From contig JAFXXD010000026.1 in the NCBI GenBank assembly GCA_017542475.1, forward strand, positions 1 to 36,239: a DNA stretch of 36,239 nucleotides, given 5' to 3'. The position numbers were made by a program, and so were the translations under genes. Below, in pieces: positions 1 to 19,595 of the stretch (its first letter is position 1; every line of letters starts with the position of its first letter). The DNA comes from Ruminococcus sp. Lineage in GTDB: Bacteria > Bacillota > Clostridia > Oscillospirales > Ruminococcaceae. The notes beneath the pieces are model-generated. The model made no database searches and was not told where the DNA came from. It saw only the letters and a list, made by a program, of their open reading frames with translations.

Positions 1-2
1 AA

Positions 3-530
3 AGCTACTGCTACGATAACAGTACCCAAACTTGCGAAAACTACGGTAGACTTTATACGTGGAACGCTGCAAAGAAGGCTTGCCCGGATGGATGGAGCTT
101 GCCGATGGGCGATGATCTCAACTATCAGGACTTCAATCTGAACGGCTTTAGAGTCGTTGACGGCGGTTACTATGTCGATGGCGAACGCTATATCGACCTT
201 GGTAACCGTGCATTCTTTTGGCTTGGCGATGAAAAGGGCGGTGACCGCGCTGATGCCATGAGCTTCAGAGGACAGAATCTCGAAACGTTTGCGTTCCAGG
301 GCCGTAAGGCGAATGGTTATTCTGTGCGTTGCATCCAGAATTGGGAAGCGGCATGCAAGGACCGTTTAGGCGGCGTGATGGACAAGACCGGAAAGACTTA
401 TAGGACGCTCAAGATTGGCGACCAGGTGTGGATGGCTGAAGACTTGATTCTCGATCGCTTGGACGAAATGGAAGCCAGAAGCCTTGGTCGTGCTTGCCCG
501 AGTGGCTGGCATGTCCCGGAACAGGCATAG
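3..530 (+). CDS. FISUMP-domain protein fragment, Fibrobacter type, open at both ends
   Basis: The reading frame is open from the window edge; frame 3 gives a run starting SYCYDNSTQTCENYGRLYTW, then ACPDGWSLP and VRCIQN. These are the hallmark pieces of the Fibrobacter succinogenes major paralogous domain (FISUMP): paired cysteines, YGRLYTW, a CPxGW motif and a closing VRC. A second domain then begins with GKTYRTLKIGDQVWMAEDL and reaches CPSGWHVP before it stops abruptly at 528-530. The domain occurs in large families of secreted or surface proteins in Fibrobacter; its function is not established. There is no start codon or signal peptide here because the 5' part lies outside the window. The last few residues and the stop codon come from the neighbouring foreign sequence, so the stop is not the natural end. 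Assignment to the domain is confident; the join is discussed as a chimera. Confidence 0.85.
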   Translation, partial: SYCYDNSTQTCENYGRLYTWNAAKKACPDGWSLPMGDDLNYQDFNLNGFRVVDGGYYVDGERYIDLGNRAFFWLGDEKGGDRADAMSFRGQNLETFAFQGRKANGYSVRCIQNWEAACKDRLGGVMDKTGKTYRTLKIGDQVWMAEDLILDRLDEMEARSLGRACPSGWHVPEQA

Positions 531-1214
531 AGCGGCTATCATCTCCTTGACGGGGATATCGCCTGTGCCCATAATGCGGTACTCGACCTTGCCGTCCGCA
601 CCCATTATAGAGTCCTTGACCTGTATGTACTTGATGAACTCGCCGAGATTAGCGACTGTAGTCTCGGGAGATTCGCCATTGTAGCGATAGGGGTGGTGCA
701 TATCCCACAGAGCGGCGACCTTGCGGCTCCCGACGCTTCTGAGGAGGCTTGCAAGACGTGCAGAATCGCTGTACACGCCGTTTGTCTCGACGAGGAGAGT
801 AACGTTGTTCTGCTCGGCAACAGGAACGAGCTGTCTGAGGCAGTCAGCAACATACTCGTCATCGACCTCTCCTCCCGGAGCAGGCTCGAGGTCGCCGAGA
901 ACTCTTATATATGAAGCGCCAAGCTTGCCCGCAAGCTCGGCATATGCTGTGATTTCTTCCTTAACGGCGTCGGATTTATCCTTGAATTTAAGGCAGGCGC
1001 CCGAGGTAAGGCAAGGAATTTCAAGTCCCAGTGATCTTAGTTTTTCGATTGTCTTAGGTAGGTTCTCTTCCTTAAAAGGCTGAGCGTTCACGGAGAATAT
1101 TTCATTTCCGAGTCCGCGGATCTCGATTCCGTCAAATCCGAAATCCTTAGCCATTGAGTAGATGTCAGTCCATGAGAAGTCGGGACAAGCAAGTGTCGAA
1201 AAGCTGATTTTCAC
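528..1214 (-). pseudogene. sugar phosphate isomerase/epimerase, 3' end cut off at the chimeric joint
   Basis: The N-terminal ~228 residues are a xylose-isomerase-like TIM barrel (AP endonuclease 2 family). MKISFSTLACPDFSW opens strand 1, FGFDGIEIRG follows, then LLVETNGVYSD with a metal-ligand-type Glu, ALWDMHHPYR with Asp-His, and VKDSI...GTGDIPVKEMIAAL. Such proteins isomerise or epimerise sugars or related polyols using a divalent metal; the substrate cannot be read from sequence. The start is GTG at 1214-1212 with AAAGGA about 10 bases upstream. After MIAAL, where the family continues with a Gly-Tyr-rich turn and a final Glu-containing strand, the frame runs into the reverse complement of the Fibrobacter-type fragment and only stops at 366. 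The last ~45 residues, normally carrying a metal-binding Glu, are therefore missing. The native gene is probably intact in the source genome. Confidence 0.8.
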
Positions 1215-1250
1215 TTTACATCATTCCTTTGAATAAAAATTTACCCCTAA

Positions 1251-1279
1251 ATTATATCACGTTAAATCGGCAAAGTCAA
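1251..1279 (-). promoter_or_regulatory. sigma-A-type promoter of the isomerase gene
   Basis: On the minus strand TTGACT (1279-1274) and TATAAT (1256-1251) are separated by 17 bases. The predicted start of transcription is near 1244, about 30 bases before the GTG start codon. Confidence 0.65.
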
Positions 1280-1310
1280 GAGGCGGACCGCATTTTCACT
1301 CGCTTTCCAC

Positions 1311-1344
1311 AAAAAAAGACCCGACATTCGCGCTGAATGTCGGG
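1311..1344 (-). terminator. intrinsic terminator of the GH5 gene
   Basis: CCCGACATTC (1320-1329) pairs perfectly with GAATGTCGGG (1335-1344) around a 5-base loop. On the minus strand the hairpin is followed by a run of seven T. It lies just past the GH5 stop codon. Confidence 0.9.
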
Positions 1345-1352
1345 CTTTATAC

Positions 1353-3224
1353 TTATTCCGTATAGGGAAGCTCAGTAATCTGCTGAGCGTCGTACAGCTG
1401 GATAGCATATGCGTCCTTCGCAGTGATTCCGTCGCCTGTATTGTATACATCGGCATTTTCAAGTCCCTGAGCCTTGAGCCCGTACTTGTCCTTGTTGCCG
1501 AGGTGCTGCAATATCGCAACAGCGTCAGCCACAGTGACCTTTCCGTCAAGGTTTGCGTCGCCGACCTTCTTTTCGCTTTGAGCTGAAGCAGCCGATGTTG
1601 TGACCTTAGCCGTAGTTGTGGTAACAGCCGAAGAAACGGTCGATGTTGTAACAGCTGAAGAAGTCGTTGTCTCTGAAGCTGTTGCAGTAGTAGTTACAGC
1701 AGATGTTGTTGTGGCTGTAGTCGTAGCAGATGTGGTAGTAGTAGTCTCGCGCGAAACAGGAGGTGTCACCGTGCCGTTGTAGTAATCGCTGAGCGAGATA
1801 CCGTTGCCTGCTGTACCGAGCGGTATCTGGTGGTCGAGACCGATGAAAACGCCGCTGTCGGTCTGCCAAAGAGCCTTAGCAACGAATGCGTACTTCTCCT
1901 CGTCCCACTTGCCGAAGTCGTCATAGACAAGTCCGCCAGTATCGCCAGAGTTCTCGTTGAAGCACCAGAACGTATGGTGGATATGCTTATCTATCATATA
2001 GTCACGGAGCTCCTGCATCCAGTGCTTGTTCTCGCCTGTCGGGTCGTGCTCGGAGTCTATGAAGCCTCCCCACTCGCCCATAAGAAGCGGATACTGCTTT
2101 TCTTCGATGAGGTAAGCCCATGTATCGTACCAGTAGTCGTCGAGGAGCGACTGGCGGTCGAAGCTTCTCGAATCGTCGTCCATATAGAACCATTTCTGCT
2201 TCCATACGAGCGGACCGTAGTCGTGCGGCGAGTAAACTATCTGAGACTTGTACTTGCCGATATCAACGGGATTATCCTTAACGCCGCGGAGGTTACCGCC
2301 CCACCATGCGCCGAACACCAGTGAAGGCTCATCGTAGTGAGCGTAGTCAACGCAGGGAGTAGTCCAGTCAGCGCCTTTTTCAAAATCAGGGTAGCACTCG
2401 ATACCCTCAATCATGATGAGGAGGTTCGGGTTCTGCTCGAGGCAAGCCATTGCGCCTTTTTCTGCTGCATATTTCCAGTTGTTGGCGTCCTTGGAGTCGT
2501 CCCACTTCGCGAACTGACCCTCCTCGGGCTTGCCGTGGGGCTCGTTCTTGAGGTCGATAGCGATGATAGTATCGTCGTCCTTGTAATACTCCGCGAACCA
2601 CGAGAGAGCGTCGAGCCAGTCCTTCTCGGAGAAGTTGTCGTCATACCACAGCGGCTTCTGATGTCCCATTGAAGCTGAGGTCGCGCTGTGAATGTCTATC
2701 ATTATCTTCATACCGTTTTCGCGGCACCACTCAACAGCCTTGTTCCAGATATCGAAGCTGTACATCAGCTCATACTGACCCTCGCCGTCAACTCCGCCGC
2801 CGACAGTGAGCTCGGGGTTCTCGTAGGGGTTGACCATCATATTAACCTCGCCGACACCGCCGCCCGTATCAGGTCCGTGCTTCTTCCACTGGAGAATTAT
2901 CTGCGTGGACATCGGCACACGGAGCAGGTTGAAGCCGTGGTCGGCTATCTGATTGAGCATACTGTGCATATTCTTCGACCACACGCCGTCGAATACCTGA
3001 CGTCCCGCATTGTAGCCGAACCAGTTACAGCCCGTCATCCATACGGGGTTGCCGTCCATATCGACAACTTCAGCGTTCTCGTTTACGTGAAGCCAGTCGT
3101 CATGGTACTCATCGGGCGCAGCCTGCGAGGATATGCCCGTCGGCACATATGAAACCCCCGAAACGCCCAGGACCACAGCGGACACGACAGCTGCCGCGGC
3201 TCTTCTGAAAAATCTTGTTTTCAT
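1353..3224 (-). CDS. secreted GH5 cellulase with C-terminal dockerin
   Basis: This 623-residue protein is a cellulosomal endoglucanase-type enzyme. Residues 1-35 form a signal peptide: KTRFFRR, a hydrophobic AAAAVVSAVVLGVSG stretch, then an Ala-containing cleavage region. Residues ~40-480 are a glycoside hydrolase family 5 barrel. The acid/base is the Glu of NEPHG (~E228) and the nucleophile the Glu of GEWGG (~E384). The opening MTGCNWFGYNAG and WSKNMHSMLNQI resemble bacterial E1-like endoglucanases. A Thr/Ser/Ala-rich linker (~485-550) precedes a type I dockerin with loops GDANLDGKVTVAD and DVYNTGDGITAKD; the second loop has the extended form seen in ruminococcal dockerins. The enzyme should hydrolyse beta-1,4-glucans while bound to a scaffoldin cohesin encoded elsewhere. 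ATG at 3224 is chosen over the upstream in-frame start at 3248 because GAGAGGG sits 6 bases before it. Exact substrate preference is open. Confidence 0.93.
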   Translation of the reverse strand: MKTRFFRRAAAAVVSAVVLGVSGVSYVPTGISSQAAPDEYHDDWLHVNENAEVVDMDGNPVWMTGCNWFGYNAGRQVFDGVWSKNMHSMLNQIADHGFNLLRVPMSTQIILQWKKHGPDTGGGVGEVNMMVNPYENPELTVGGGVDGEGQYELMYSFDIWNKAVEWCRENGMKIMIDIHSATSASMGHQKPLWYDDNFSEKDWLDALSWFAEYYKDDDTIIAIDLKNEPHGKPEEGQFAKWDDSKDANNWKYAAEKGAMACLEQNPNLLIMIEGIECYPDFEKGADWTTPCVDYAHYDEPSLVFGAWWGGNLRGVKDNPVDIGKYKSQIVYSPHDYGPLVWKQKWFYMDDDSRSFDRQSLLDDYWYDTWAYLIEEKQYPLLMGEWGGFIDSEHDPTGENKHWMQELRDYMIDKHIHHTFWCFNENSGDTGGLVYDDFGKWDEEKYAFVAKALWQTDSGVFIGLDHQIPLGTAGNGISLSDYYNGTVTPPVSRETTTTTSATTTATTTSAVTTTATASETTTSSAVTTSTVSSAVTTTTAKVTTSAASAQSEKKVGDANLDGKVTVADAVAILQHLGNKDKYGLKAQGLENADVYNTGDGITAKDAYAIQLYDAQQITELPYTE

Positions 3225-3241
3225 TCTTTTCCCTCTCTTAC

Positions 3242-3267
3242 TGAACAAATCAACAAAGATTTGTTCA
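3242..3267. promoter_or_regulatory. palindromic operator in the GH5 5' leader
   Basis: TGAACAAATC (3242-3251) and GATTTGTTCA (3258-3267) are perfect reverse complements separated by six bases. The site begins about 8 bases downstream of the predicted transcription start and ends before the ribosome binding site, a position suited to a blocking repressor. The cognate regulator is not identifiable in the window. Confidence 0.7.
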
Positions 3268-3281
3268 CACTATTTTATAAT

Positions 3282-3310
3282 ATTATACATCATAAAGGAA
3301 TAGATGTCAA
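3282..3310 (-). promoter_or_regulatory. perfect-consensus promoter of the GH5 cellulase gene
   Basis: On the minus strand TTGACA (3310-3305), a 17-base spacer and TATAAT (3287-3282) match the housekeeping consensus exactly. Transcription should start near 3275, giving a ~50-base leader that contains the palindromic operator. Confidence 0.85.
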
Positions 3311-3351
3311 CGGCTTTGTACATAAATTATTAATATATACCCATCTTCACG

Positions 3352-3385
3352 ACAAAACAAATGAGCCTCCGTTACGGAAGCTCAT
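3352..3385 (-). terminator. terminator of the two-component operon
   Basis: ATGAGCCTCC (3361-3370) pairs with GGAAGCTCAT (3376-3385) with one mismatch and a 5-base loop. On the minus strand it is followed by TTTGTTTTG. It lies ~150 bases past the histidine kinase stop and upstream of the GH5 promoter, so it would insulate the two units. Confidence 0.65.
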
Positions 3386-3473
3386 CTGCCATGATATAGG
3401 GATTATTGGGGATGTCAAAAATATATTTCGTCGGACACTCAACTGTCATTGATAATATTATATCATACAATTA

Positions 3474-3499
3474 TGAACAAATCAACATTAATGTGTTCC
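3474..3499. promoter_or_regulatory. second, degenerate copy of the GH5 operator
   Basis: TGAACAAATCAAC is repeated exactly from the operator at 3242, and the right arm AATGTGTTCC matches 7 of 10 positions of that operator's right arm. The two copies are 232 bases apart and flank the GH5 promoter, an arrangement compatible with looping repression. Spacing and function are inference. Confidence 0.45.
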
Positions 3500-3537
3500 T
3501 ATGAACTCCAAAATAGCTCAACGGATAAGCTGATTAT

Positions 3538-4995
3538 TTATTCATCTTCAACATCACTTACGTCCCGTGCGCTTATTCTGAACCAGAAAACCGAGCCCTC
3601 GCCGAGCTTGCTGCGCACGCCGTAGTCGTAATTGTGGAGCTTCAGCACAGCCTTTACTATTGATAGCCCCAGTCCCGTACCGACGACCTCACGCTTATGG
3701 TTCTCGGAGCGGTAGTACTTATCGAAAATAAGCCTTATCTTTTCCTCCTCGATACCGTCGCCCGTGTCCTGCACCTCGATAACAATGCCCTCGGGCTTGT
3801 TTATCTGCCGCACATAGACCTGCTTGTCCTCGCCTGTATAGTTTATGGCGTTGTTGATGAGGTTATATATCACCTGCTCTATCTTCACGACGTCGCAGTT
3901 GACGATCTTTTCCTCGTCGGGCTCGAAGTGGATATTGTAGCCCATCTTCTCGGATATGCCCTTGAATCGGCTGATTATCTCGCCGAGCTTCTCGCGTATG
4001 CGGAACTCCGACGGCGAAAGCTTCTGCTTCCCGCTCTCGAGCTTGGACAGATCGAGGATATCGTTTACCATAAGCGAGAGCCTGTCTGTCTCGTTGATGA
4101 TTATTTCGAGGTGCTCGTTGCGCTTGACGGGATTATCGCCCGAGAGATCGCGAATCATTTCCGCATAGGCTTTCAGCATAGTCAGCGGAGTGCGCAGGTC
4201 GTGGGAGACATTGGCTATGAGGTCGCGCTGCATAGTATCTACGCGCGAGATCTCCATTTCCGCATAGGTAAGGGTCTCCGCGAGCTTTTTGACCTCGAGG
4301 TATCCCCTGCCGTCGAACTTTGTATCGAAATTGCCCTTTGCAAGGCTCTCGGCTGCTTCGGTTATGCTGTCTATGGGACGTGCTATCCTCCGCGCCATAT
4401 AGAGCGATATGAAGAATGCGAATATCAGCAGGATGATCGTGATTATCATAAGCTGGCGCTTGATAATGGTGACTGTCGAGCCGACGGGAACAAGCGTCGT
4501 ATTGATGAGCAGGTAGCCTTCGGGATTATCCTCCGAGCCGAGCACGCACCCGTACAGCACAGTCGAGCAGTTGTTGCGCGGATTGTTGACCTTCAGCCAT
4601 ATCGGCTTGTTTCCGTTGTCGGAGATGCGCTTCTGGTACACGTAGATACTGTTCTCGCGACCGTGAATGATACAGCTTACCGAGTATTCCTTCGTGTACA
4701 GCGACCTGCCGAAGCGGTCTGACACCTCGATACAAAGGTCGTTTGCAGAGGCTATCTTCGTGAGCTTATCGCTGAATTCCGAGGAAGTATCGCTGTTATA
4801 CGAAGCTATTATCGCATTCGACGCCTTTTCGACGTCCTTCAGCTTGGTCTGCGAGTAGAACTTCTCGAGGAAGAGTATCTGAAACAGCCAGAGCAGCACG
4901 AAAACGAGTATCGTGAAGCCGAGGAAATACAGCCATATGCTGAATTTCAGCGGTATCCTGCCAAAAACGCTCCGTACCTTTTTAATCAGCTTCAA
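3538..4995 (-). CDS. membrane sensor histidine kinase, ResE/PhoR/VicK type
   Basis: The 485-residue protein has a first membrane helix at ~18-40, an extracytoplasmic sensor region of ~135 residues and a second helix around 180-200 (QLMIITIILLIFAFFISLYM). A HAMP linker follows (RRIARPIDSITEAAESLAKG), then a HisKA domain with phospho-acceptor His in VSHDLRTPLT (~H265). The HATPase domain has an N box (NLINNAINYT), a G1 box (DTGDGI) and a G2 box (GTGLGLSIVKA). It autophosphorylates and passes phosphate to the adjacent OmpR-type regulator, whose 3' end it overlaps by 14 bases, so translation is probably coupled. The only in-frame start fitting that overlap is TTG at 4995-4993; its ribosome binding site is weak. 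The stimulus cannot be read from the sequence. Proximity to the cellulase gene does not prove a link, since a terminator lies between them. Confidence 0.9.
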   Translation of the reverse strand: MKLIKKVRSVFGRIPLKFSIWLYFLGFTILVFVLLWLFQILFLEKFYSQTKLKDVEKASNAIIASYNSDTSSEFSDKLTKIASANDLCIEVSDRFGRSLYTKEYSVSCIIHGRENSIYVYQKRISDNGNKPIWLKVNNPRNNCSTVLYGCVLGSEDNPEGYLLINTTLVPVGSTVTIIKRQLMIITIILLIFAFFISLYMARRIARPIDSITEAAESLAKGNFDTKFDGRGYLEVKKLAETLTYAEMEISRVDTMQRDLIANVSHDLRTPLTMLKAYAEMIRDLSGDNPVKRNEHLEIIINETDRLSLMVNDILDLSKLESGKQKLSPSEFRIREKLGEIISRFKGISEKMGYNIHFEPDEEKIVNCDVVKIEQVIYNLINNAINYTGEDKQVYVRQINKPEGIVIEVQDTGDGIEEEKIRLIFDKYYRSENHKREVVGTGLGLSIVKAVLKLHNYDYGVRSKLGEGSVFWFRISARDVSDVEDE

Positions 4996-5659
4996 ACTTG
5001 TATCCCATTCCTCTCAGAGTGACGATGAACTTTCTGTACTCGCCGAGGCTGTTGCGGAGCATCTTGATATGGGTATCGACGGTTCTGTCGTCGCCGAAGA
5101 AATCGTAGCCCCACACCTCTTCGAGGAGCTGGTCGCGTGAGAGCGCGATATTCTTATTGCGCACAAGGTAGAATAACAGGTCATACTCCTTGGGAGTCAT
5201 CGAAGCCTTTTCGCCGTTTACGTAGACCTCACGTCCCGAGATATCGACCTCGAGCCCCTCAAATACGAACTTGTCCGCCTGATTCGGGTCGGACGACGCC
5301 TTATTGCGCTTGAGCACGACTTTTACGCGAGCCATGAGCTCCTTTGGCGAGAACGGCTTTACAACGTAATCGTCAACGCCTATCTCGAAGCCGAAGAGCT
5401 TGTCGTATTCCTCTCCCCTTGCGGAAAGCATTATCACGGGGATATTCTTGGTCTTGTGTATCTCCTTGCAGGCTGAGTAGCCGTCAAGGCGGGGCATCAT
5501 AACGTCCATTATGATGAGGTCGTAGTCGTTTTCGTGGCAGAGGCTTACAGCCTCCATACCGTTCTCGGCTTCTGTTATCTCGTAGCCCTCGAATTCGGCG
5601 TACTCGCGCACGACCTTACGGATATTCACTTCGTCGTCAACTATCAGTATATGTGGCAT
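4982..5659 (-). CDS. OmpR/PhoB-family response regulator
   Basis: The 225-residue protein has a receiver domain starting PHILIVDDEVNIRKVV with the acidic pair DD(E), the phospho-acceptor Asp in DLIIMDVMMPRLDGY, Ser in IMLSARGE and Lys in VVKPFSPKEL. The C-terminal winged helix includes SMTPKEYDLLFYLVRN, RDQLLEEVWGYDFFGDDRTVDTHI and LRGMGYKFE, typical of Trans_reg_C. It should bind DNA as a dimer when phosphorylated by the downstream kinase. ATG at 5659 is preferred over an in-frame start 45 bases upstream because CGGAGG lies 9 bases before it and MPHILIV is the normal beginning of the fold. The pair resembles PhoP/ResD/VicR regulators; no target site can be named. Confidence 0.93.
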   Translation of the reverse strand: MPHILIVDDEVNIRKVVREYAEFEGYEITEAENGMEAVSLCHENDYDLIIMDVMMPRLDGYSACKEIHKTKNIPVIMLSARGEEYDKLFGFEIGVDDYVVKPFSPKELMARVKVVLKRNKASSDPNQADKFVFEGLEVDISGREVYVNGEKASMTPKEYDLLFYLVRNKNIALSRDQLLEEVWGYDFFGDDRTVDTHIKMLRNSLGEYRKFIVTLRGMGYKFEAD

Positions 5660-5692
5660 AGCTTTGACCTCCGTTTGTTTACATATATATTT

Positions 5693-5721
5693 AGTATAGC
5701 ACATAACCGTGAAAAATGCAA
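5693..5721 (-). promoter_or_regulatory. promoter of the response regulator-kinase operon
   Basis: TTGCAT (5721-5716) and TATACT (5698-5693) on the minus strand are 17 bases apart, ~35 bases upstream of the regulator start codon. Confidence 0.6.
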
Positions 5722-5834
5722 CAGTACAGACATTTTCTTCTGTATTATAAAGCGTAAAAGTGTTTAAACTGTGATATTTTTATGTTAGCGTGATATAATT
5801 TTATAAAAGATGTAGCGTAATAGCAAAATAATGA

Positions 5835-5863
5835 TTGACATTTTAGTATAAATTTGCTATAAT
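5835..5863 (+). promoter_or_regulatory. perfect-consensus promoter of the EAL-protein gene
   Basis: TTGACA (5835-5840), 17 bases, TATAAT (5858-5863). The predicted start near 5870 leaves a leader of ~47 bases. It is divergent from the two-component promoter. Confidence 0.85.
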
Positions 5864-5916
5864 GTATTTAACTGGGATAATGTGCAAACTAAAATTACGG
5901 AAAGGAGTGATAGTCA

Positions 5917-8145
5917 ATGAAGTCAGGCAACCCTCTTGCGGCGGCGATAGTCATCGCGCTTTCGACCGCACTGGTCGTTTTCTACGCGTTTCTGCGCCCC
6001 GAACAGACTCTTGCGATAATCATCATCTATCTCGCGACTATCGTCTTCCTCTCCTTTATAGTATACTTCATCAGCAAGATGTACGGCAAGCTCAAAACAT
6101 CTATCGACGCCGAGGACTTCGCCGAGATAACCGAGTCGCTCAATACCGAGATAATCGTCTGGTGCGACGACTTCTCCTTCGTTGCGATGAACTCGCGTAT
6201 ACGCGAGCTGCTCGGCATTACAGGCAACAAATACGACGAAAAGGAAATGCTCAAAAAGGCGTTTGAGCTTCCCGACCTGACCGATGAGAGCTTCAAAACC
6301 ATCACCGAGACAGGCTCTCACGAGGCACACTTCCTCACTAACGAGGACAAGCTCATAACCATTGCGTGGAGCACGTCCGTCATAAAGAAGCGCAAGAAGA
6401 ACTGCGTATACCTCAGTACAGGCTTCAACCTGACCGAGATAAAGAATATGCAGGTCAACCTCGACAACGCAAACGACTTCTTCAATACTGCGATGGACCT
6501 CGCCGAGATCGGCGTTATAATGACCACAGACCGCAAGAAGTTCATCGTCTCCTCTATCGCTATGGAGGCTCTCGGTCTTACGACGAGCAGTATCGACATC
6601 GGTACGCTGCGCACACAGATACACCCCAATGACCGCATACAGTTCGACAGAGCCGTCAAATCAGGAGAATCCTACAACTCCGAGGTACAGAATGTCGAGC
6701 TGCGCATCAAGTCGCTCAACGGCTCTGCCTACCGCTGGTACTCCTTCCGCTACAAGTCGATACAGTCTACGGGCAATACGCTGAATCTCTTCGGCGGAGC
6801 GCTCCTCGACATCACACAGGAGCACGAGAAGGATATCCTCATTGAGCGTCTCGCTTACATCGACGAGGTAACAGAGATCGCCAACCGCAACAAGCTTATG
6901 GACATAGGTCAGAAGACCTACGAGTGCAGCCAGCTGCTCAATTACTCATACTGGATAATCGTCCTCGATATCGACCGCTTCCACATCATAAACGATACCT
7001 GCGGCTACTCGAACGGCAACTATATACTCAAGAATTTCGCTCATATCCTTTATAAATTCGTTACCCCCGGAGGTCTTGCCGCAAGAATAAGCGGCGACAA
7101 CTTCGCACTCGTCCTCCGCGACTACGGCGACGATGAGCTCCCAATACGCACCGCCAAGACCATACAGGACGAATTCGCTAAGCTCGCAGTCGATGATTTC
7201 GCAGCTATAAATCTGAGCTGCTCGGCAGGCTTCTCGAAGCTCCCCGACGACGGAAACTCCTTCCTCGACGTTATGGAGCACGCGGAGTTCGCACTGAAAT
7301 CGGGCGATGCCAACAACAGCAGCATCTATGGCTATGAGCCGAGTATGCACGACTCCATCATCGGCAACACCGAGCTTGAAAAGTCGCTTGCTCTCGCTAT
7401 CGACCACAACGAGCTCCAGCTCTACTACCAGCCGAAGATAGACCTGAAAACAGGCAAGATAATTGGCGTTGAGGCTCTTATCCGCTGGATAAAGCCCGAC
7501 GGCACCGTAATAAAGCCCGATTCCTTCGTGCCTATCGCCGAGAGCTCACACCTCATCGGCAAGATAAGCGAGTTCGTACTCAACGAGGGCTGCCGTCAGA
7601 ATAAGCTGTGGCAGAAGATGGGCTACCCGAACATCGTAATGTCCATCAACTTCACCTCGACCGACTTCTATCAGAACGACCTCAAGGAAAAAGTTCTCGA
7701 CGCGCTCGCTATGTCGGGACTTGACCCGCAGTGGCTCGAAGTAGAGCTGACCGAGACTCTCGCCCTCAGCGATATCGACTTTGCTGTCGCGCAGATGAAC
7801 AAGCTCCGCGACCTCGGAGTAAAGCTCGCAATGGACGATTTCGGCACCGGCTATTCTTCATTGAGCTACCTTCAGATACTGCCTATCACGCTTCTGAAGC
7901 TCGACCGCTCGTTCATCACAGATATCCAGCACGACAACATCGCGTATGAGATAGTTTCTGCGGTAATACGTATCGCGAAATCCAAGCGTATCGAGACTAT
8001 CGCCGAGGGTATCGAGAACACGGGTCAGGAGGATATCCTCCGACAGGCAGGTTGTGACTACGGTCAGGGCTACCTCTACGGAAAGCCAATGCCCGCAAGC
8101 AAGCTGGAGGAATTCTTCGAGCGCAACGCGGAAGTACACTATTGA
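5917..8145 (+). CDS. membrane c-di-GMP phosphodiesterase: PAS, degenerate GGDEF, intact EAL
   Basis: The 742-residue protein begins with two hydrophobic helices (about 7-25 and 31-53) followed by PAS-like regions; the second (to ~305) contains an HPNDRIQFDRAV segment and YRWYSFRY. The GGDEF-like domain (~315-475) keeps DIDRFHIIND but its signature is SGDNF (392-396), so it should not make c-di-GMP. The EAL domain (~490-735) is complete: EAL (519-521), INFTS, ELTET, DDFGTGYSSL (640 on), LLKLD, AEGIE and GQGYLYGKP. All metal and catalytic positions of active phosphodiesterases are therefore present, so it should hydrolyse c-di-GMP to pGpG, with the GGDEF relic perhaps sensing GTP. The start is ATG 5917 with AAGGAG 9 bases before. 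The phosphofructokinase gene follows after 42 bases without a clear promoter and may be co-transcribed. Confidence 0.93.
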   Translation: MKSGNPLAAAIVIALSTALVVFYAFLRPEQTLAIIIIYLATIVFLSFIVYFISKMYGKLKTSIDAEDFAEITESLNTEIIVWCDDFSFVAMNSRIRELLGITGNKYDEKEMLKKAFELPDLTDESFKTITETGSHEAHFLTNEDKLITIAWSTSVIKKRKKNCVYLSTGFNLTEIKNMQVNLDNANDFFNTAMDLAEIGVIMTTDRKKFIVSSIAMEALGLTTSSIDIGTLRTQIHPNDRIQFDRAVKSGESYNSEVQNVELRIKSLNGSAYRWYSFRYKSIQSTGNTLNLFGGALLDITQEHEKDILIERLAYIDEVTEIANRNKLMDIGQKTYECSQLLNYSYWIIVLDIDRFHIINDTCGYSNGNYILKNFAHILYKFVTPGGLAARISGDNFALVLRDYGDDELPIRTAKTIQDEFAKLAVDDFAAINLSCSAGFSKLPDDGNSFLDVMEHAEFALKSGDANNSSIYGYEPSMHDSIIGNTELEKSLALAIDHNELQLYYQPKIDLKTGKIIGVEALIRWIKPDGTVIKPDSFVPIAESSHLIGKISEFVLNEGCRQNKLWQKMGYPNIVMSINFTSTDFYQNDLKEKVLDALAMSGLDPQWLEVELTETLALSDIDFAVAQMNKLRDLGVKLAMDDFGTGYSSLSYLQILPITLLKLDRSFITDIQHDNIAYEIVSAVIRIAKSKRIETIAEGIENTGQEDILRQAGCDYGQGYLYGKPMPASKLEEFFERNAEVHY

Positions 8146-8187
8146 TATAACGCACTTTCAATAAATTAAAAGACGGAGGTATCAACC

Positions 8188-9270
8188 ATGAAAAGACGAA
8201 TCGGAATTCTCACAAGCGGCGGCGACTGTCCAGGACTCAACGCTACGATACGCGGCGTGGCAAAGGCTTGCTACGAGCGCTTCGGCGAGGACAACGTCGA
8301 GATAGTCGGTATTTCCAACGGCTACTACGGACTTATCAACAATCTCTGCAAGGATATGGCTCCTTCCGCATTTTCGGGAATACTCACTCAGGGCGGAACG
8401 ATATTCGGTACCAAGCGTCAGCCGTTCAAGATGATGCAGGTCATCGGCGAGGACAACGTTGACAAGGTCAAGAATATGAAGGACACCTACAAGAAGCAGA
8501 AGCTCGACTGCCTGCTCACTCTCGGCGGCAACGGCACGCACAAGACCTCGAAGCTTCTCTCTGACGAGGGACTGAACGTCATCGGTCTGCCCAAGACCAT
8601 AGACAACGACATCTACGGCACGGACGTTACATTCGGCTTCCATACGGCAGTTGACATCGCCACCGACGTCATCGACCGACTCCATACTACAGCCGCGAGC
8701 CACAGCCGTATACTTGTATGCGAGATAATGGGCAATAAGGCTGGCTGGCTCACGCTGAATGCGGGTATCGCAGGCGGAGCTGACATCATCATTATCCCTG
8801 AGATCCCCTACGACATCGACAAGGTCTGCGAGGCAGTAATGGCAAGAAGCGCTTCGGGCAAGACCTTCTCTATCCTCGCAGTGGCTGAGGGCGCATTTGA
8901 CGTAACCGAAGCAAAGATGAAGAAAAAGGAGCGTGCGAAGAAGCGTGCCGAGGCTGGGATCATCACGGCTACGGGACGAATTGCCGCTCAGATACAGGAA
9001 AACACAGGCATAGAGGCGAGAGTCTGCGTACCGGGACATATGCTCCGCGGCGGAGCTCCGAGTGCCTATGACCGTATCCTTTCGACGCAGTTCGGCGTAC
9101 ACGCGGCATACCTCATAGCGCAGGAGAAGTACGGCAGAACTGTTGCAAAGATAGGCAACAAGATAACCTCCAACAAGCTTGAGGACATCGCAGGCAAGAC
9201 GAAGTTCGTGAACACGGAAGACCACCTCGTTATCGCAGCACGCGACATCGGAGTATCCTTCGGCGACTGA
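8188..9270 (+). CDS. pfkA: 6-phosphofructokinase, atypical active-site variant
   Basis: This 360-residue enzyme phosphorylates fructose 6-phosphate in glycolysis. The family motifs are GILTSGGDCPGLNA at the nucleotide loop, GGNGTHKTS, LPKTIDND, EIMGNKAGW and PGHMLRGGAPSAYDR. Two positions differ from the well-studied E. coli enzyme. GGDGS reads GGNGT, so the Asp that helps hold magnesium is Asn. The MGR motif reads MGN. The Gly after that Asn favours ATP as donor, while Lys in PKTIDND is the residue of pyrophosphate-dependent and group III enzymes, so the phosphoryl donor is uncertain. It has GGAGG 8-9 bases before ATG. An intrinsic terminator follows 9 bases past the stop. Family identity is certain; donor specificity is not. 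Confidence 0.93.
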   Translation: MKRRIGILTSGGDCPGLNATIRGVAKACYERFGEDNVEIVGISNGYYGLINNLCKDMAPSAFSGILTQGGTIFGTKRQPFKMMQVIGEDNVDKVKNMKDTYKKQKLDCLLTLGGNGTHKTSKLLSDEGLNVIGLPKTIDNDIYGTDVTFGFHTAVDIATDVIDRLHTTAASHSRILVCEIMGNKAGWLTLNAGIAGGADIIIIPEIPYDIDKVCEAVMARSASGKTFSILAVAEGAFDVTEAKMKKKERAKKRAEAGIITATGRIAAQIQENTGIEARVCVPGHMLRGGAPSAYDRILSTQFGVHAAYLIAQEKYGRTVAKIGNKITSNKLEDIAGKTKFVNTEDHLVIAARDIGVSFGD

Positions 9271-9278
9271 TCAATAAT

Positions 9279-9306
9279 AAAGGACAGGGCTTCTCCCCTG
9301 TCCTTT
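9279..9306 (+). terminator. terminator of phosphofructokinase, probably bidirectional
   Basis: AAAGGACAGGG (9279-9289) pairs perfectly with CCCTGTCCTTT (9296-9306), with T-rich sequence on the plus side and TTTATTATTG on the minus side. Confidence 0.85.
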
Positions 9307-9317
9307 TCATTTATACT

Positions 9318-9350
9318 GGAAGAGCCACCCGCATTGCAGGTGGCTCTTCC
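9318..9350 (-). terminator. hairpin behind gdhA
   Basis: GGAAGAGCCACC (9318-9329) and GGTGGCTCTTCC (9339-9350) form a 12-bp perfect stem with a 9-base loop, just past the gdhA stop. The T tract is weak, so it may act together with the hairpin at 9279 or protect the 3' end. Confidence 0.6.
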
Positions 9351-9379
9351 GATATGATACATTTTCTATTCAGACTTGA

Positions 9380-10786
<1,407 letters not shown>

Positions 10787-10795
10787 TCAAAATTA

Positions 10796-10824
10796 ATTAT
10801 ACCACTAATAAAAGGCATTTTCAA
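10796..10824 (-). promoter_or_regulatory. gdhA promoter with extended -10
   Basis: On the minus strand TTGAAA (10824-10819), 17 bases, then TATAAT (10801-10796) preceded by TGG, giving an extended -10 element. The start is expected near 10789, ~40 bases before the gene. Confidence 0.75.
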
Positions 10825-10859
10825 GTACCCATTTCACTTTAAATGGCAAAATCGCCCGA

Positions 10860-10878
10860 TTTGTGCAGACTGTACAAA
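10860..10878. promoter_or_regulatory. candidate regulator site 1 upstream of gdhA
   Basis: TTTGTGCAGACTGTACAAA is a 19-bp dyad with 8 of 9 matching positions in each arm. It lies 36 bases beyond the -35 element, a typical activator position. It does not match the GlnR/TnrA pattern TGTNA-N7-TNACA. Confidence 0.5.
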
Positions 10879-10891
10879 TCAGGTGTGATAT

Positions 10892-10909
10892 TTTGTGCAG
10901 CTCTACAAA
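10892..10909. promoter_or_regulatory. candidate regulator site 2 upstream of gdhA
   Basis: TTTGTGCAGCTCTACAAA repeats the left arm of site 1 exactly (TTTGTGCAG) and has a degenerate right arm. The two sites start 32 bases apart, close to three helical turns, as expected for a protein binding the same DNA face twice. Confidence 0.45.
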
Positions 10910-10986
10910 GACGAAAAATATTTTTCTGATAATCAACGGTTTCCCATTGAAAAAAGCGCTTTTTCCGCCCTCTTATAGAAGCGGCT

Positions 10987-12243
10987 TTATTCAGGCATAG
11001 AGTTGAGGTACTCGCTCGCAAGGTAGAGCGAGCCGCATACTACTGCAACACCGTCGTTTTCGAGAGCAAGCTGTTTCGCTGACTCTACCGCTTCTGCGAG
11101 AGTTGAAGTTTCCGCCTCCGTGTAGAACGAGGCGATATCCTGCAAGGTCTCGGCGGGAACGCTGTTATAAGCAAAACCGTCTACAGCGAAAAACTTGTCC
11201 GACTGGCGTGCTATCATCTTCACGCACTCGGCGTAATCCTTCGAGTCAACCATGCCCATTACAGCGTAGATACGCTTGTTGCGGGTGCTGAGGTACATCA
11301 GCATCAGCGAGAGCATATTCACACCCGCGGGATTGTGTCCGCCATCCACGATGACGGGCGGCTTGCCGTCGATGTACTGCACACGGGCGCGAACCTGCGT
11401 GATCTCGACTGCTCTGATGATGTTGCCGTCGCTTATCTCAAAGCCCTTGCTTCTGAGGTAAATGCAGGCTGTTATAGCCGTCTGAGCGTTGTACTTTTGA
11501 TGAAGCCCTGCCATAGCGGGAGTTAGCTTTATGCCGCGGTACATGAACGGCGCAAACAGTCCGCCGTCAGAGTAGGGCTTGCACGGTTCGAGCGGTATAA
11601 GCTCCGCGCCGACTTTTTCAGCCGTCTCCGCAACGAGAGCTTTAACGCTGTCGGGGTTATCGTCTGCAAGCACCACAGCCGAGCCAGCCTTGATAATTCC
11701 TGCTTTATGGGAAGCTATCTCCTCGACGGTATTTCCGAGCAGAGCCGTGTGGTCGAGCGATATCGACGTTATTACCGACAGCAGCGGAGCGGGTATCACG
11801 TTCGTGCAGTCAAGCAGACCGCCTATGCCTGTTTCAAGCACAACGATGTCGCAATTCTCGCGCTCGAACCACAGGAAGGCTATTGCCATAGTTATCTCGA
11901 ACTGCGAGTAGGGACGGTCGTTTACAGCTCCCCTCACCTGCTCCGCTATCTCGGCGAGCGAATCGTCGTCTATATCGTGACCGTTTATGCGTATGCGGTC
12001 GTTGTAGCGGAGAATGAACGGCGAGGTGAACTGTCCCGTCTTATAGCCTGACATTATCAGCGCATTCGAGATGTATTCGAGCGTCGAGCCCTTGCCGTTC
12101 GTACCTGCGATATGCACGAATTTCAGCCTCTTTTCGGGACTGCCGATACGCTCCATAAGCTCCTGAGCACGCGAGAGGTCGGTGATCCTGCCGCCCGATT
12201 TTGTGTAGCTGTTAATGAATGATATTGCTTCATTGATGTCCAT
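10987..12243 (-). CDS. folC: folylpolyglutamate synthase / dihydrofolate synthase (Mur ligase family)
   Basis: The 418-residue protein adds glutamate to dihydropteroate and/or to folates in the cytoplasm. The Mur-ligase P-loop is HIAGTNGKGSTLEYISNALIMSG, followed by the family motif TGQFTSPFILRYNDRIRING (the Ser-Pro segment after the P-loop), ETGIGGLLDCTN with metal-ligand Glu, SLDHTALLGNT, and later VDGGHNPAGVN, the C-terminal domain signature. ATG 12243 is chosen: GAGG lies 8 bases before it and MDINEAISFINS matches the family start. An open frame continues upstream to 12351 but runs through a palindromic intergenic element and is not credible protein. FolC and FPGS activities cannot be separated from sequence. 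Confidence 0.95.
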   Translation of the reverse strand: MDINEAISFINSYTKSGGRITDLSRAQELMERIGSPEKRLKFVHIAGTNGKGSTLEYISNALIMSGYKTGQFTSPFILRYNDRIRINGHDIDDDSLAEIAEQVRGAVNDRPYSQFEITMAIAFLWFERENCDIVVLETGIGGLLDCTNVIPAPLLSVITSISLDHTALLGNTVEEIASHKAGIIKAGSAVVLADDNPDSVKALVAETAEKVGAELIPLEPCKPYSDGGLFAPFMYRGIKLTPAMAGLHQKYNAQTAITACIYLRSKGFEISDGNIIRAVEITQVRARVQYIDGKPPVIVDGGHNPAGVNMLSLMLMYLSTRNKRIYAVMGMVDSKDYAECVKMIARQSDKFFAVDGFAYNSVPAETLQDIASFYTEAETSTLAEAVESAKQLALENDGVAVVCGSLYLASEYLNSMPE

Positions 12244-12259
12244 AATGTACCTCATAAGA

Positions 12260-12387
12260 AATGCGTAATTCATAATGCGTAATGCGTAATTGATGTGTCG
12301 GCTTGCGCCGACGTATTCAAATATTTTCAAATACGTGTCCGAAGGACACACAACAAATTACGAATTACGAATTAAGCATTACGCATT
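12260..12387. repeat. 128-bp palindromic intergenic element (MITE- or REP-like)
   Basis: The ends are 32-base imperfect inverted repeats (12260-12291 and 12356-12387) made of reiterated AATGCGTAAT / ATTACGAATT units. Between them lie two hairpins: GTCGGC-TTGC-GCCGAC (12297-12312) and GTGTCC-gaa-GGACAC (12335-12349). The right end supplies the stop codon of the Dabb gene. No open frame or transposase is present. It resembles non-autonomous miniature elements or structured intergenic repeats and could act as a transcript end or stability element between Dabb and folC. Confidence 0.75.
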
Positions 12388-12688
12388 AATACTCATAGTC
12401 TATGCAGGCGCGGTCAGTCTTGACTGTGCCGATGAATTTGCCGAATTCAACGTGTGCGGGGTGCACCTGATATGCGTTGAGGTCGTCGATAGTGTCAAAG
12501 TCGCAGAGCAGGGATATCGTGTAGTTGCTTGCGGGAGCATCCTTGGAATTGATGACTATCTCTCCCCTTTTCAGCTCCTTGACGTTCTTGATGACGTTCT
12601 CGAATCTCCTCTGAGCTTCAAGTGCGTTCTCGTATTCCGAGCGCCCGTCAGCATCTTTGAGCTTGAACATTACTATGTGTTTTATCAT
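12386..12688 (-). CDS. Dabb-family stress-responsive alpha/beta barrel protein
   Basis: The 100-residue single-domain protein starts MIKHIVMFKLKD and contains NYTISLLCDFDTIDDLNAYQVHPAHVEF, both typical of the Dabb (PF07876) dimeric alpha-beta barrel, including the conserved His-Pro near the C-terminal third. Members are small dimeric proteins; most bacterial ones have no defined role, so none is assigned. The start overlaps the GNAT stop by ATGA, indicating translational coupling in the valS operon, with GCAGGTG before the start. The stop codon TAA is formed by the edge of the palindromic element, so the last residues (IDYEY) abut an insertion-like sequence and the original C-terminus might have differed slightly. 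Confidence 0.9.
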   Translation of the reverse strand: MIKHIVMFKLKDADGRSEYENALEAQRRFENVIKNVKELKRGEIVINSKDAPASNYTISLLCDFDTIDDLNAYQVHPAHVEFGKFIGTVKTDRACIDYEY

Positions 12689-13221
12689 TGTTTCACCTGC
12701 TTTCTGAGTTCATATCTCTTTGATTTATAAGTCATGCTGCCGTCGAATCGGGAATATTCTCCGTAGCCGACAAATATAAGTCCACACTTTTCCATAACTC
12801 TTGCCGAGGCGATATTTTCAATAGCGCACTCGCCCATGATTACCTCAGGAGAGTATTTCTCCTGTATGAATTTTATCATACACTTAGTTATTTCGGTTGT
12901 ATATCCTTTGCCCCAACAGTCAAAGCGGGTATTGTAGCCGAATGACCACTCTCCCGTATCGGCATGAAGGCGCATACCGCCCGAACCTATGAGCAGACCG
13001 TCACTTTTGCGAACGAATCCCCACTGGTACTCATTTTCAAGAGCTTCCAGAGACATCAGCCATTGCCTTGAATCGTCGGGGGTACGGTGAGTATTATATG
13101 GCATATAAGTGTTGACACGCTCATCGCCTGCCCATCGGAATACTGCTTCTGCGTCCTCAACAGTGAGAGGACGCAGGATAAGCCTTTCTGTTTCTATTGT
13201 CGGTATCTCAAATTTGCTCAT
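12685..13221 (-). CDS. GNAT N-acetyltransferase, RimJ/RimL type
   Basis: The ~178-residue protein has the RimJ/RimL layout: IETERLILRPLTVEDAEAVFRWAGDE at the start, GSGGMRL in the middle and GYNTRFDCWGKGYTTEITKCMIKF, where WGKGYTTE is the acetyl-CoA pyrophosphate loop. NIASARVMEKCGLIFVG is the usual C-terminal helix. It transfers an acetyl group from acetyl-CoA to an amine, commonly a protein N-terminus or a small molecule; the acceptor is unknown. ATG 13221 has AGGCGG upstream; ATG 13233, four codons earlier, overlaps the previous stop and is an equally possible start. It is the third gene behind valS. Confidence 0.88.
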   Translation of the reverse strand: MSKFEIPTIETERLILRPLTVEDAEAVFRWAGDERVNTYMPYNTHRTPDDSRQWLMSLEALENEYQWGFVRKSDGLLIGSGGMRLHADTGEWSFGYNTRFDCWGKGYTTEITKCMIKFIQEKYSPEVIMGECAIENIASARVMEKCGLIFVGYGEYSRFDGSMTYKSKRYELRKQVKQ

Positions 13222-13229
13222 AAGCCGCC

Positions 13230-13580
13230 TCATTTCGTCAGCTCATAGCTCGCGTCTATGAGGTTTAGTATCACTTCAATTTCAAGCGAGCCGTCAAGCG
13301 GCAGGCTTATCCAGTGCTGCTTGTTCATATGATAGGCGGGCAGAGCCTTCCCCTCGCCGAGGAGTATCTCCCTGACTGAAGGCTCGCATTTGACATTGAG
13401 TATGTCAACTATGCCTTCGCCCGTGAGCCCGACCGTTTTCCGCGGTATATCCATAATTATGCCGTACCACCTGCGGTTGCTGCGGTGGCGGATAACGGCT
13501 GTATTAGGCGTTTTCGCCCACAGGTATTCGGGCTCTGTGCCGTACTGCTCGGCGACGTATGAAAATATCCTGTTTCTCAT
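13230..13580 (-). CDS. MmcQ/YjbR family protein
   Basis: The 116-residue protein begins RNRIFSYVAEQYGTEPEYLW and has IRHRSNRRWYGIIMDIPRKTVGL, LNVKCEP and MNKQHWISLPLDGS, the pattern of the MmcQ/YjbR family (CyaY-like fold, often labelled DNA-binding although the role is unproven). It follows valS by 31 bases on the same strand without a promoter and ends within the GNAT start, so it belongs to the valS transcript. The ribosome binding site is poor; a short hairpin TGCGG-acgtc-CCGCA lies in the gap. The start at 13580 matches the family N-terminus. Confidence 0.88.
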   Translation of the reverse strand: MRNRIFSYVAEQYGTEPEYLWAKTPNTAVIRHRSNRRWYGIIMDIPRKTVGLTGEGIVDILNVKCEPSVREILLGEGKALPAYHMNKQHWISLPLDGSLEIEVILNLIDASYELTK

Positions 13581-13611
13581 ATCGAAAGTGTTGCGGGACG
13601 TCCGCAGAACC

Positions 13612-16230
13612 TTATTTGAAGGCAGCCATAGACTGCTCTATCTTAGCCATTTTCTCCTCAGCCTTTGCAAGCTTCGCCTTTTCAGCCTCTATCAGCTGAG
13701 CGGGAGCCTTCGCTACGAAGCCCTGATTGTTGAGCTTATTGCTGAGGAAGTCGATGTCCTTCTGTACCTTTGCCTTCTCCTTCTCGAGACGTGCTATCTC
13801 CTTCTCCTTGTCAACGAGCTCGTCCATAGGAATGAAGATACGGGCAGAATCGGTTACTGCGTTCGCGCAGTTCTCGTGAGCAAGGCTCTCGCCTGCTTCT
13901 ACTGTTGAAGCGGAAGCGAGCTTCTCGAAGAATACGCCGCAGGACTTGAACAGCTCGGGCTTTGCTGTCTCGATGAGGAGCTTTGCCTTTATCGACGGCG
14001 GAACGTTCATTTCAGTGCGGACATTGCGGACTGCCTTTATCGCCGAGATTATCTTCTCGAACGCTTTCTCCTCGGCTGTGAAGTCGATGGAAGCGTCGTA
14101 GGTCGGGTATGTTTCGAGGATTATCATTGACTTCTCGTTGTTGAGAACCTGCCATATCTCCTCAGTGATGAACGGCATAAAAGGATGCAGGAGCTTCAGC
14201 ATACCCTGCATTGCCCATACGAGCACTGCCTGAGCCTTTGCCTTGGCTTCGCCGCCTGCCTGTATACGCGGCTTTGTAAGCTCGATGTACCAGTCGCAGT
14301 AAACGTCCCATATGAAGTCGTATATCTTCTGCGAAGCAACTCCGAGCTCGTACTTGTCAAGGTTCTCGTTGACCTCCTTGGCAAGCTTGTTGAACTTGCT
14401 GACGAGCCACTTGTCCTCGAGCTCAAGCTCCGCGGGAAGTCCCGTGAACTCGAAGTCCTCGGGCAGATTCATCATAATGAAGCGTGAAGCGTTCCAGAGC
14501 TTGTTTGCGAAGTTACGCGCTGCCTTGACCTTCTCGTCAATGTAGCGCATATCATTTCCGGGCGAGTTGCCTGTCGCGAGCATAAAGCGGAGAGCGTCCG
14601 CACCGTACTCGTTGATGACCTCGAGCGGGTCGATACCGTTGCCGAGCGACTTGGACATCTTGCGTCCCTGAGCGTCGCGGACAAGTCCGTGTATGAGGAC
14701 TGTGTCAAAGGGTACCTTGCCCATATTTTCAAGTCCGCTGAACATCATTCTGATTACCCAGAAGAAGATGATGTCGTAGCCGGTTACGAGGGTGTTCGTA
14801 GGATAGAAGTAGTCGAGGTCTGCTGTCTTCTCGGGCCAGCCGAGAGTCGAGAACGGCCACAGAGCCGAGCTGAACCATGTATCGAGAGTATCGGGGTCCT
14901 GACGCATAGGCTTGCCGCACTTCGGGCAGACTGCGCTGTCCTCCTTGGTTACGACCATTTCGCCGCACTCGTCGCAGTAGAATGCGGGTATCTGGTGTCC
15001 CCACCATATCTGACGGGAGATGCACCAGTCGCGGATATTATCGAGCCAGTGGAAGTATATCTTGTCGAAGCGCTCGGGTACGAACTTGGTGTCGCCATTC
15101 TTTACAGCGTCAATTGCGGGCTGAGCAAGGGGCTTCATCTTGACGAACCACTGTGTAGAGACCTTGGGCTCTACTGTAGTTCCACAGCGGTAGCACGTAC
15201 CGACGTTGTGGCTGTAGTCCTCGATCTTTACGAGTGCGCCCTCTGCTTCGAGGTCCTCGACTATCTTCTTGCGTGCTTCGTATCTGTCCATGCCTGCGTA
15301 TGCGGGATAGTCGTCAACAATAGTGGCGTCGTCATTCATTACGTTTATAACGGGAAGCTTGTGGCGGAGTCCTACCTCGAAGTCGTTCGGGTCGTGGGCG
15401 GGAGTTATCTTAACTACGCCTGTTCCGAAATCCATTTCTACATAGTCATCAGCTACGATAGGGATCTCGCGGTGTACGAGCGGGAGGATAACGGTCTTGC
15501 CTACCAAATCCCTGTAGCGCTCGTCAGCGGGATTTACGGCTACAGCGGTATCGCCGAGCAGTGTCTCGGGACGTGTTGTAGCCAGTTCAAGGTAGCCGTC
15601 TGTATCCTTTATCTTGTAGCGCAGGTGCCAGAAGTGACCTGCCTGATCCTCGTATGTAACCTCGGCGTCCGAGAGTGAGGTCTTGCATTTCGGGCACCAG
15701 TTGATGATTCGCTCGCCGCGGTAGATAAGTCCTTTTTCGTAGTATTTTACGAATACTTCCTTGACCGCCTTAGAGCAGCCCTCGTCCATAGTGAAGCGCT
15801 CGCGCGACCAGTCGCAGGACGAACCGAGCTTCTTGAGCTGCTCTACGATGCGTCCGCCGTACTGGCGCTTCCACTCCCATGCACGCTCCATAAAGCCGTC
15901 GCGTCCGAGGTCTTCCTTGGTGATACCTTCCTTGCGCATTGCCTCGACTATCTTAGCCTCTGTTGCAATAGCGGCGTGGTCTGTGCCGGGGAGCCACAGC
16001 GCGGAATAGCCGCTCATTCTCTTCCAGCGGATAAGTATGTCCTGCAATGTCTCGTCGAGAGCGTGTCCCATATGGAGCTGTCCCGTGATGTTCGGGGGCG
16101 GGATTACGATAGTGTAGGGCGTTTTCTTCGGGTCTGCCTCTGCGCGGAAGCAGCCCTTGTCGTTCCACGCGGCATAGATACGGTCCTCAAAGTCCTTGGG
16201 GTCGTAGGTCTTAGCAAGTTCCTTTGCCAT
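13612..16230 (-). CDS. valS: valyl-tRNA synthetase
   Basis: This 872-residue class I synthetase charges tRNA-Val and hydrolyses mischarged Thr-tRNA. The HIGH motif is HMGH in [16 protein letters not shown], and the KMSKS motif appears in [15 protein letters not shown]. The editing domain has [17 protein letters not shown] and the Val-specific threonine pocket; Cys pairs in CYRCG and CDECGEMV...CPKCGKPM suggest zinc sites. The anticodon-binding domain follows, and a coiled coil closes the protein ([20 protein letters not shown] on), as in bacterial ValRS. Length is normal. Transcription starts ~300 bases upstream and passes through a T-box leader, so uncharged tRNA-Val should raise expression of valS and the three small genes behind it. 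Confidence 0.98.
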
Positions 16231-16278
16231 TGTGATTTCTCCTTTTCGTCGATGATGTCGGTCCGTGCAAAATAAAAT

Positions 16279-16537
16279 CGCCCCGAACCTTTTACGGTTC
16301 AGGGCGAACTAATGTCCGTGTTACCACCTGAATTCGGATATCTCTATCCGCACTCTGCGAGGTCGTAAAACCTCTCCCTCTGTAACGTGAGGACACGCCG
16401 CCGACTAATCGCTCGCGCTTTCGCCTGCGGGACTCGGAAGCTACTTCGCCGCACCTCTCATACCACCTTGCACCGAATGGCGGCTCTCTGAGAATCAAGG
16501 AAGCGGGTACTCCTCTTCGTCATCGTCTTTATCATAT
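16279..16537 (-). ncRNA. T-box leader of valS, specifier GUA
   Basis: On the minus strand the leader opens with GAAGAGGAGTACCC, then AGAGAGCCGCC and GGTGCAAGGTGG of stem I. The stretch GCGAAGTAGCTTCCGAG presents GTA (16444-16442), a valine codon, in the specifier position. The T-box core GGTGGTAACACGG (16328-16316) contains UGGU, able to pair with an ACCA tRNA end, matching the usual discriminator A of tRNA-Val. The terminator stem CGCCCTGAACC / GGTTCGGGGCG (16306-16279) with one mismatch ends in ATTTTATTTT. All parts fit a transcriptional T-box that reads through when tRNA-Val is uncharged. Confidence 0.93.
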
Positions 16538-16543
16538 GCTACT

Positions 16544-16572
16544 ATTATACTCATATTCTCACATTTTGTCAA
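16544..16572 (-). promoter_or_regulatory. perfect-consensus promoter of the valS operon
   Basis: TTGACA (16572-16567), 17 bases, TATAAT (16549-16544) on the minus strand; the start near 16537 coincides with the 5' edge of the T-box. Confidence 0.88.
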
Positions 16573-16636
16573 GTACCTTTCATCTCCGAAAAATCAGTTT
16601 CTTAAAGCAAAAATTGCGGAGTTGCTCCCTGCTCTA

Positions 16637-16665
16637 TTGACAAAAATAATCTTATACTTTATAAT
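16637..16665 (+). promoter_or_regulatory. perfect-consensus promoter of the alpha-xylosidase gene
   Basis: TTGACA (16637-16642), 17 bases, TATAAT (16660-16665). It leaves a ~107-base leader before the gene, in which no clear riboswitch was recognised. Confidence 0.85.
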
Positions 16666-16778
16666 TAATGTATGTATTATCAATGTGCTTTTATATAGTT
16701 TTAGCATAGAACTGTATCACAGTTTTTATTGATTACCGACAAATTCGGCGCCCTCTCGCCGCAGACAAGGAGTTTATT

Positions 16779-19094: not shown

Positions 19095-19100
19095 TGTATG

Positions 19101-19133
19101 GGGACAGTTTGAAGTCAGACGAAAAACTGTCCC
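19101..19133 (+). terminator. hairpin behind the alpha-xylosidase gene
   Basis: GGGACAGTT (19101-19109) pairs with AACTGTCCC (19125-19133); the T tract TATTAT is poor, so read-through into the next gene (25 bases on) is possible. Confidence 0.55.
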
Positions 19134-19157
19134 TATTATAATAGTATAGGAGGAGCT

Positions 19158-19595
19158 ATGATATACACTAAGCTGACTGTCAGAGCTATGCAGCTCGCAT
19201 ATGCTGCTCATCACGGGCAGACCGATATAAGCGGTGTGCCCTATATCTTCCACCCTTTTCACGTTGCGGAGCAGATGACCGACGAGTATGCGGTATGTGC
19301 GGCTCTGCTGCATGATGTTGTCGAGGACACCGATGTGACATTGGCGGAGCTTGTAAAGAAATTTCCGAGAGAGGTCACCGAGGCTGTGAGACTTCTCACT
19401 CACACAGAGGGCGCCGACTACCGCGATTATATACTCGCAATAAAAGAGAATGATATCGCGCGGCGGGTGAAGCTCGCAGACCTTGAGCACAACCTTGACA
19501 GAAGCCGAATCCTTGGGATATGTGACGTTCCCGCAGAGAAACTTGCGCGCTGGGACGAGAAGTATGCGCTCGCGTTGAAGCTGCTGAAGGATTGA
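19158..19595 (+). CDS. HD-domain protein, small alarmone hydrolase-like
   Basis: The 145-residue protein matches the N-terminal hydrolase domain of RelA/SpoT proteins without synthetase or regulatory parts. AYAAHHGQTDISGVPYIFHP starts it, ALLHDVVEDTDVTLAEL carries the HD metal pair and the ED that marks active (p)ppGpp hydrolases, and RRVKLADLEHNLD carries the last metal-binding Asp. Stand-alone versions (MESH1-like) cleave pyrophosphate from (p)ppGpp or remove phosphate from NADPH; either is possible here. AGGAGG precedes ATG 19158. It lies 63 bases behind the alpha-xylosidase gene, perhaps on the same transcript, which would be an unusual pairing of alarmone turnover with xyloglucan use. 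Confidence 0.85.
   Translation: MIYTKLTVRAMQLAYAAHHGQTDISGVPYIFHPFHVAEQMTDEYAVCAALLHDVVEDTDVTLAELVKKFPREVTEAVRLLTHTEGADYRDYILAIKENDIARRVKLADLEHNLDRSRILGICDVPAEKLARWDEKYALALKLLKD

Follow-up and report, generated by a model that had tools for sequence, protein, structure and literature searches.

Chimeric contigs are a known problem of metagenome assembly and are reported, in the available portion of one study, to be likelier for species of low to intermediate coverage (PMC7881036); local assembly errors of metagenomes are discussed in the accessible part of a second (PMC7111523). Our literature search returned nothing on MEGAHIT in connection with inter-species chimeric contigs, nothing on FISUMP in connection with Fibrobacter, and nothing on a TIM-barrel/AMP-binding fusion; a Fibrobacter succinogenes major paralogous domain protein appears in the accessible part of PMC4619616 merely as an entry in a proteome table. 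The window analyzed here is the entire contig C45 (36239 bases), which belongs to a genome bin of 57 contigs and 2.66 Mb rated 94% complete and 1% contaminated. Near its left end lies a joint that is present in the sequence but is almost certainly a false join arising from library preparation or metagenome assembly, the decisive point being an exact 119-base overlap with another contig, C2, together with an in-frame continuation of the interrupted gene on that contig.

At this joint, a rightward frame at 3-530 encoding a FISUMP domain and a leftward frame at 366-1214 encoding a TIM barrel are both broken at one place. A three-way alignment of the window, the Fibrobacter locus L239 and contig C2 assigns positions 1-526 to Fibrobacter and the sequence from 529 onward to Clostridia, in agreement with the original prediction that the two genes are cut tail to tail at a single position. 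Fibrobacter homology stops at 526, after the residues CPSGWHVPEQ and two bases of the following codon, and the TAG stop at 528-530 is a product of the joint. The two bases in between (527-528) read AT in the window, TG in Fibrobacter and CG in C2, thus matching neither source. The Fibrobacter genome G228 agrees with the window at 515 of 526 bases left of the joint versus 21 of 100 just beyond it, while C2 agrees at 119 of 119 bases from 529 versus 24 of 100 bases to the left; since identity drops on both sides, the boundary is not due to chance. The three-way comparison revealed no run of bases common to both sources at the joint.

The left piece (1-526, forward strand) is an internal stretch of a Fibrobacter FISUMP/OmpA gene that was wrongly joined here, corresponding to about residues 185-359 of 655, as assigned from its PF09603 match, DNA identity and composition. 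Frame 3-530 scores above the cut-offs of both PF09603 (9.4e-18; 65.6 bits, cut-off 33.9) and TIGR02145 (1.2e-29; 104.2 bits, cut-off 41.65), which makes the fragment a member of the FISUMP (Fib_succ_major) proteins of Fibrobacter by Pfam as well as NCBIfam and bears out the claim that this is a FISUMP-domain frame. When the protein was compared with genome contigs, 79 loci were kept, the nearest ten of which all come from Fibrobacter metagenome-assembled genomes (MAGs), with 84-93% amino-acid identity; the DNA of these ten loci is 80-86% identical, and every long match ends at 523-526. Among 80 genomes of the genus Fibrobacter, 77 gave some match and 17 a long one, and none of the matches listed passes 526. 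The best of them, G228, shows 98% DNA identity to window 1-526, and its gene continues past the cut as a 655-aa frame with FISUMP and OmpA domains, in which the cut falls at residue 359. The order-4 Markov composition, expressed as log-odds per base, is 0.088 (Fibrobacter-like) for 1-526, above all 35 held-out native windows (mean -0.049, maximum 0.019), versus -0.051 for 529-1214, so that the comparison of composition left and right of the joint proposed with the original prediction separates the two sides. The bin yielded nothing of the rest of the 7-kb Fibrobacter neighborhood, and no second FISUMP domain was found in the genome itself. Unlike a FISUMP gene native to its host, the 1-526 fragment belongs to a co-sampled Fibrobacter and not to the Clostridia genome.

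On the right side, the first 119 bases of C2 (271109 bases, same assembly; C2:1-119, reverse strand) are identical, base for base, to window 529-647, and the overlap is limited to this length: 119 bases match, 120 do not. This end of C2 is the true continuation of the contig. Reading C45 into C2 yields a single in-frame 842-aa open reading frame (window 529-1214 on the reverse strand, then L009:120-1962 on C2) with PF01261 at residues 22-245, PF00501 at 302-690 and PF13193 at 742-817. Window 529-1214 (reverse strand) therefore holds the native first 229 residues of a TIM-barrel and AMP-binding fusion gene, and same-genus genomes match it from 529 on. The leftward frame 366-1214, which matches PF01261, leaves its native course at 529 (residue 229); its remainder, 366-528 on the reverse strand, is a false tail that, as had been recognized, is the antisense of the Fibrobacter fragment, and it is not part of any protein, the native gene taking another course on C2. 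The earlier description of an isomerase missing its last strands was right about the truncation, which falls at 529, but the whole fused AMP-binding enzyme is lost as well, and the reading of the gene as a stand-alone isomerase fails, as it is the front part of the 842-aa isomerase-ligase fusion.

In relatives the same gene reads straight on past the joint position. In all seven relatives' loci the frame aligns free of stops from residue 1 to 728, as far as the loci reach; one of the seven, L096, is aligned to 723 with 5 gap positions. Uninterrupted homologues of both halves, proposed as a check on the joint, exist: the Fibrobacter gene running past the cut in G228 and the Clostridia gene in these seven loci. 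In four of four relatives (genomes G004, G008, G009 and G038), the parts found on C45 and on C2 are contiguous on one contig, each with the 119-base overlap. Some part of window 1-1214 is matched by 47 of the 59 other same-genus genomes, the remaining 12 having no match at all and being uninformative on the join, and in none of the 59 does a match cross 528/529. Matches to the FISUMP side in these 59 genomes comprise only two 34-base stretches at 170-203.

Beyond the joint, same-genus relatives match window 529-19973 and 19527-36239 in long blocks with short gaps. By these matches, the contig from 529 on is native to a cellulosomal Clostridia genome and the foreign part is only 1-528, which upholds the view that the remaining window is Clostridia-like. 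Right of the joint, too, a few conserved genes have matches in the Fibrobacter genome G228, at 64-79% identity, among them a glutamate-dehydrogenase-type gene at 9390-10600 (73%); such matches reflect ordinary homology. The neighboring native gene (1353-3248, reverse strand) encodes a GH5 cellulase (PF00150) with a dockerin (PDB dockerin matches, residues 554-629), and its dockerin-coding stretch, 1353-1563, is repeated at many places in its own genome and in relatives. Many such copies are expected of a cellulosome producer. The GH5-dockerin enzyme and its dockerin matches in the PDB suggest that the genome is that of a cellulosomal bacterium, perhaps a Ruminococcus. A stretch of about 90-110 bases at 10873-10991 occurs in many copies on both strands of same-genus genomes at about 75-88% identity; it is a dispersed repeat adjoining the glutamate-dehydrogenase-type gene and has no Rfam match at gathering score. 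A T-box leader (RF00230, 111.4 bits) lies at 16297-16532 on the reverse strand, upstream of a valyl-tRNA synthetase-type gene (13612-16230), and is the sole match in an Rfam scan of the window, far from the joint.

The reading that the original prediction favored, two community members falsely joined in assembly, accounts for the sides coming from different organisms (Fibrobacter on the left, same-genus Clostridia on the right), for a true continuation elsewhere in the assembly, and for a join absent from relatives of either side (0 of 59 same-genus genomes; none among the matches listed for 80 Fibrobacter genomes). A real recent transfer would instead place Fibrobacter DNA inside the isomerase-ligase gene of some Clostridia cells, with C2 derived from intact sister cells. 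The contig itself states the join, a match as close as 98% to a Fibrobacter genome would be consistent with transfer in the very recent past, and the side at C45:1 is open, leaving the far end of any insert unseen; nevertheless, an uninterrupted allele with an exact 119-base overlap lies in the same bin, where a transfer would leave no such native allele in the genome. Transferred DNA would have native sequence on both flanks; here the left end of the fragment runs off the contig. At the joint the fragment breaks off within a gene, no mobile element was seen there, and no further piece of the donor neighborhood occurs in the bin. With the join also unseen among the relatives searched on either side, such a transfer is very improbable, as the prediction had held in ranking it lower, and its narrower form, in which a minority of the sampled Clostridia cells carried a very recent cross-phylum insertion and the assembler followed this minority path into C45, is just as implausible.

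Mis-binning of the whole contig, by which the mixture would reflect binning and not assembly, found no point in its favor, and the long same-genus blocks from 529 to the contig end, with only 1-528 foreign, make it more improbable still. Hardly any weight at all falls to a native Clostridia FISUMP gene that meets, tail to tail, an isomerase gene short by nature: nothing was found in its favor, the fragment agrees at 98% of its bases with a gene of Fibrobacter, the genome contains no other FISUMP match, and the isomerase gene goes on in C2 and in relatives.

To characterize the assembly in which the false join stands, the outer 400 bases were compared at both ends of all 57 contigs (114 ends); 16 ends, from 8 contigs, were masked as N and left out, leaving 98. 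Contig pairs with a common same-direction terminus share exactly 141 bases in 14 of 14 cases, and no dovetail longer than 141 bases occurs among the 98 ends. The default k values of MEGAHIT, as given in the available part of PMC9784204, are 21, 29, 39, 59, 79, 99, 119 and 141, of which 119 and 141 are the last two and consecutive. Because forks share 141 bases and this value closes the MEGAHIT list, the assembly resembles a run of MEGAHIT type with a final k of 141. The Clostridia genome carries the intact 842-aa gene across the joint site, and the real continuation was stranded as one end of C2; the 528 bases by which C45 was extended in its place derive, at 1-526, from a Fibrobacter living in the same community. 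The 119 bases shared by C2 and C45 look like the trace of a branch in the k=119 round, and the likeliest trigger would be a small number of chimeric fragments, or else extension by local assembly, at this branch in a multi-k assembler such as MEGAHIT. Either is likelier than a repeat-driven join, of which nothing was seen: the two sources lack a common run of bases at the joint. As the fork overlap elsewhere is 141 and not 119, the exact graph history at this joint is a guess. Something must have supported the join in the assembler, and the library may therefore have contained joined molecules. Speculatively, AT at 527-528 would be consistent with end-to-end joining of two A-tailed fragments, although this dinucleotide is expected 1 time in 16 by chance.

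The gene restored across the C45/C2 overlap combines both domains, a xylose-isomerase-like TIM barrel (PF01261) and an acyl-CoA/aryl-CoA ligase (PF00501, PF13193), in one open frame. Across the family, 119 genomes were searched (118 others and its own); among the matches listed, one frame covers at least query residues 2-831 in 19 others, and parts of both halves in one frame in three more (G143, G141 and G101). The halves are separate genes on one contig in 17 other family genomes among the matches listed, and 14 of the 119 have no match to the fusion protein. In other genera of the family, the TIM barrel and the ligase are separate neighboring genes, whereas here they form one 842-aa protein. 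By sequence, the nearest PDB entries to the ligase part are fatty-acyl-, feruloyl- and malonyl-CoA ligases among the matches listed, and the 60 PDB matches listed, out of 232, for the part on C2 are ligase-type proteins. At all three split loci examined (L244, L245 and L246), a gene with protein-kinase and PASTA domains stands between the halves; together with the fused or split arrangement, this suggests that the two enzymes belong to a common pathway, which a kinase may control. In one fused genome, G181 (L247:4163-8943, reverse strand), the fusion gene is preceded by genes for another AMP-binding enzyme and for an HTH-cupin regulator.

Left uncorrected, the database entry presents a spurious 282-aa isomerase, credits a Clostridia genome with a FISUMP gene that is not its own and gives a misleading hint of transfer. 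It also conceals a genuine gene, the isomerase-ligase fusion, which is found repeatedly in the family. The contig is a clean worked case of a cross-phylum false join in a well-rated bin, detected without reads through contig ends and relatives, the 119-base overlap left at the end of C2 being what makes the misjoin visible. As far as the available portions of PMC7881036 and PMC7111523 describe such cases, the joint shares the features of chimeric contigs between species and of local errors in short-read metagenome assembly: two unrelated genomes meet at an abrupt boundary, genes are cut on both sides, and the real continuation lies on another contig. Within those portions, it does not differ in kind from the chimeric contigs already described.
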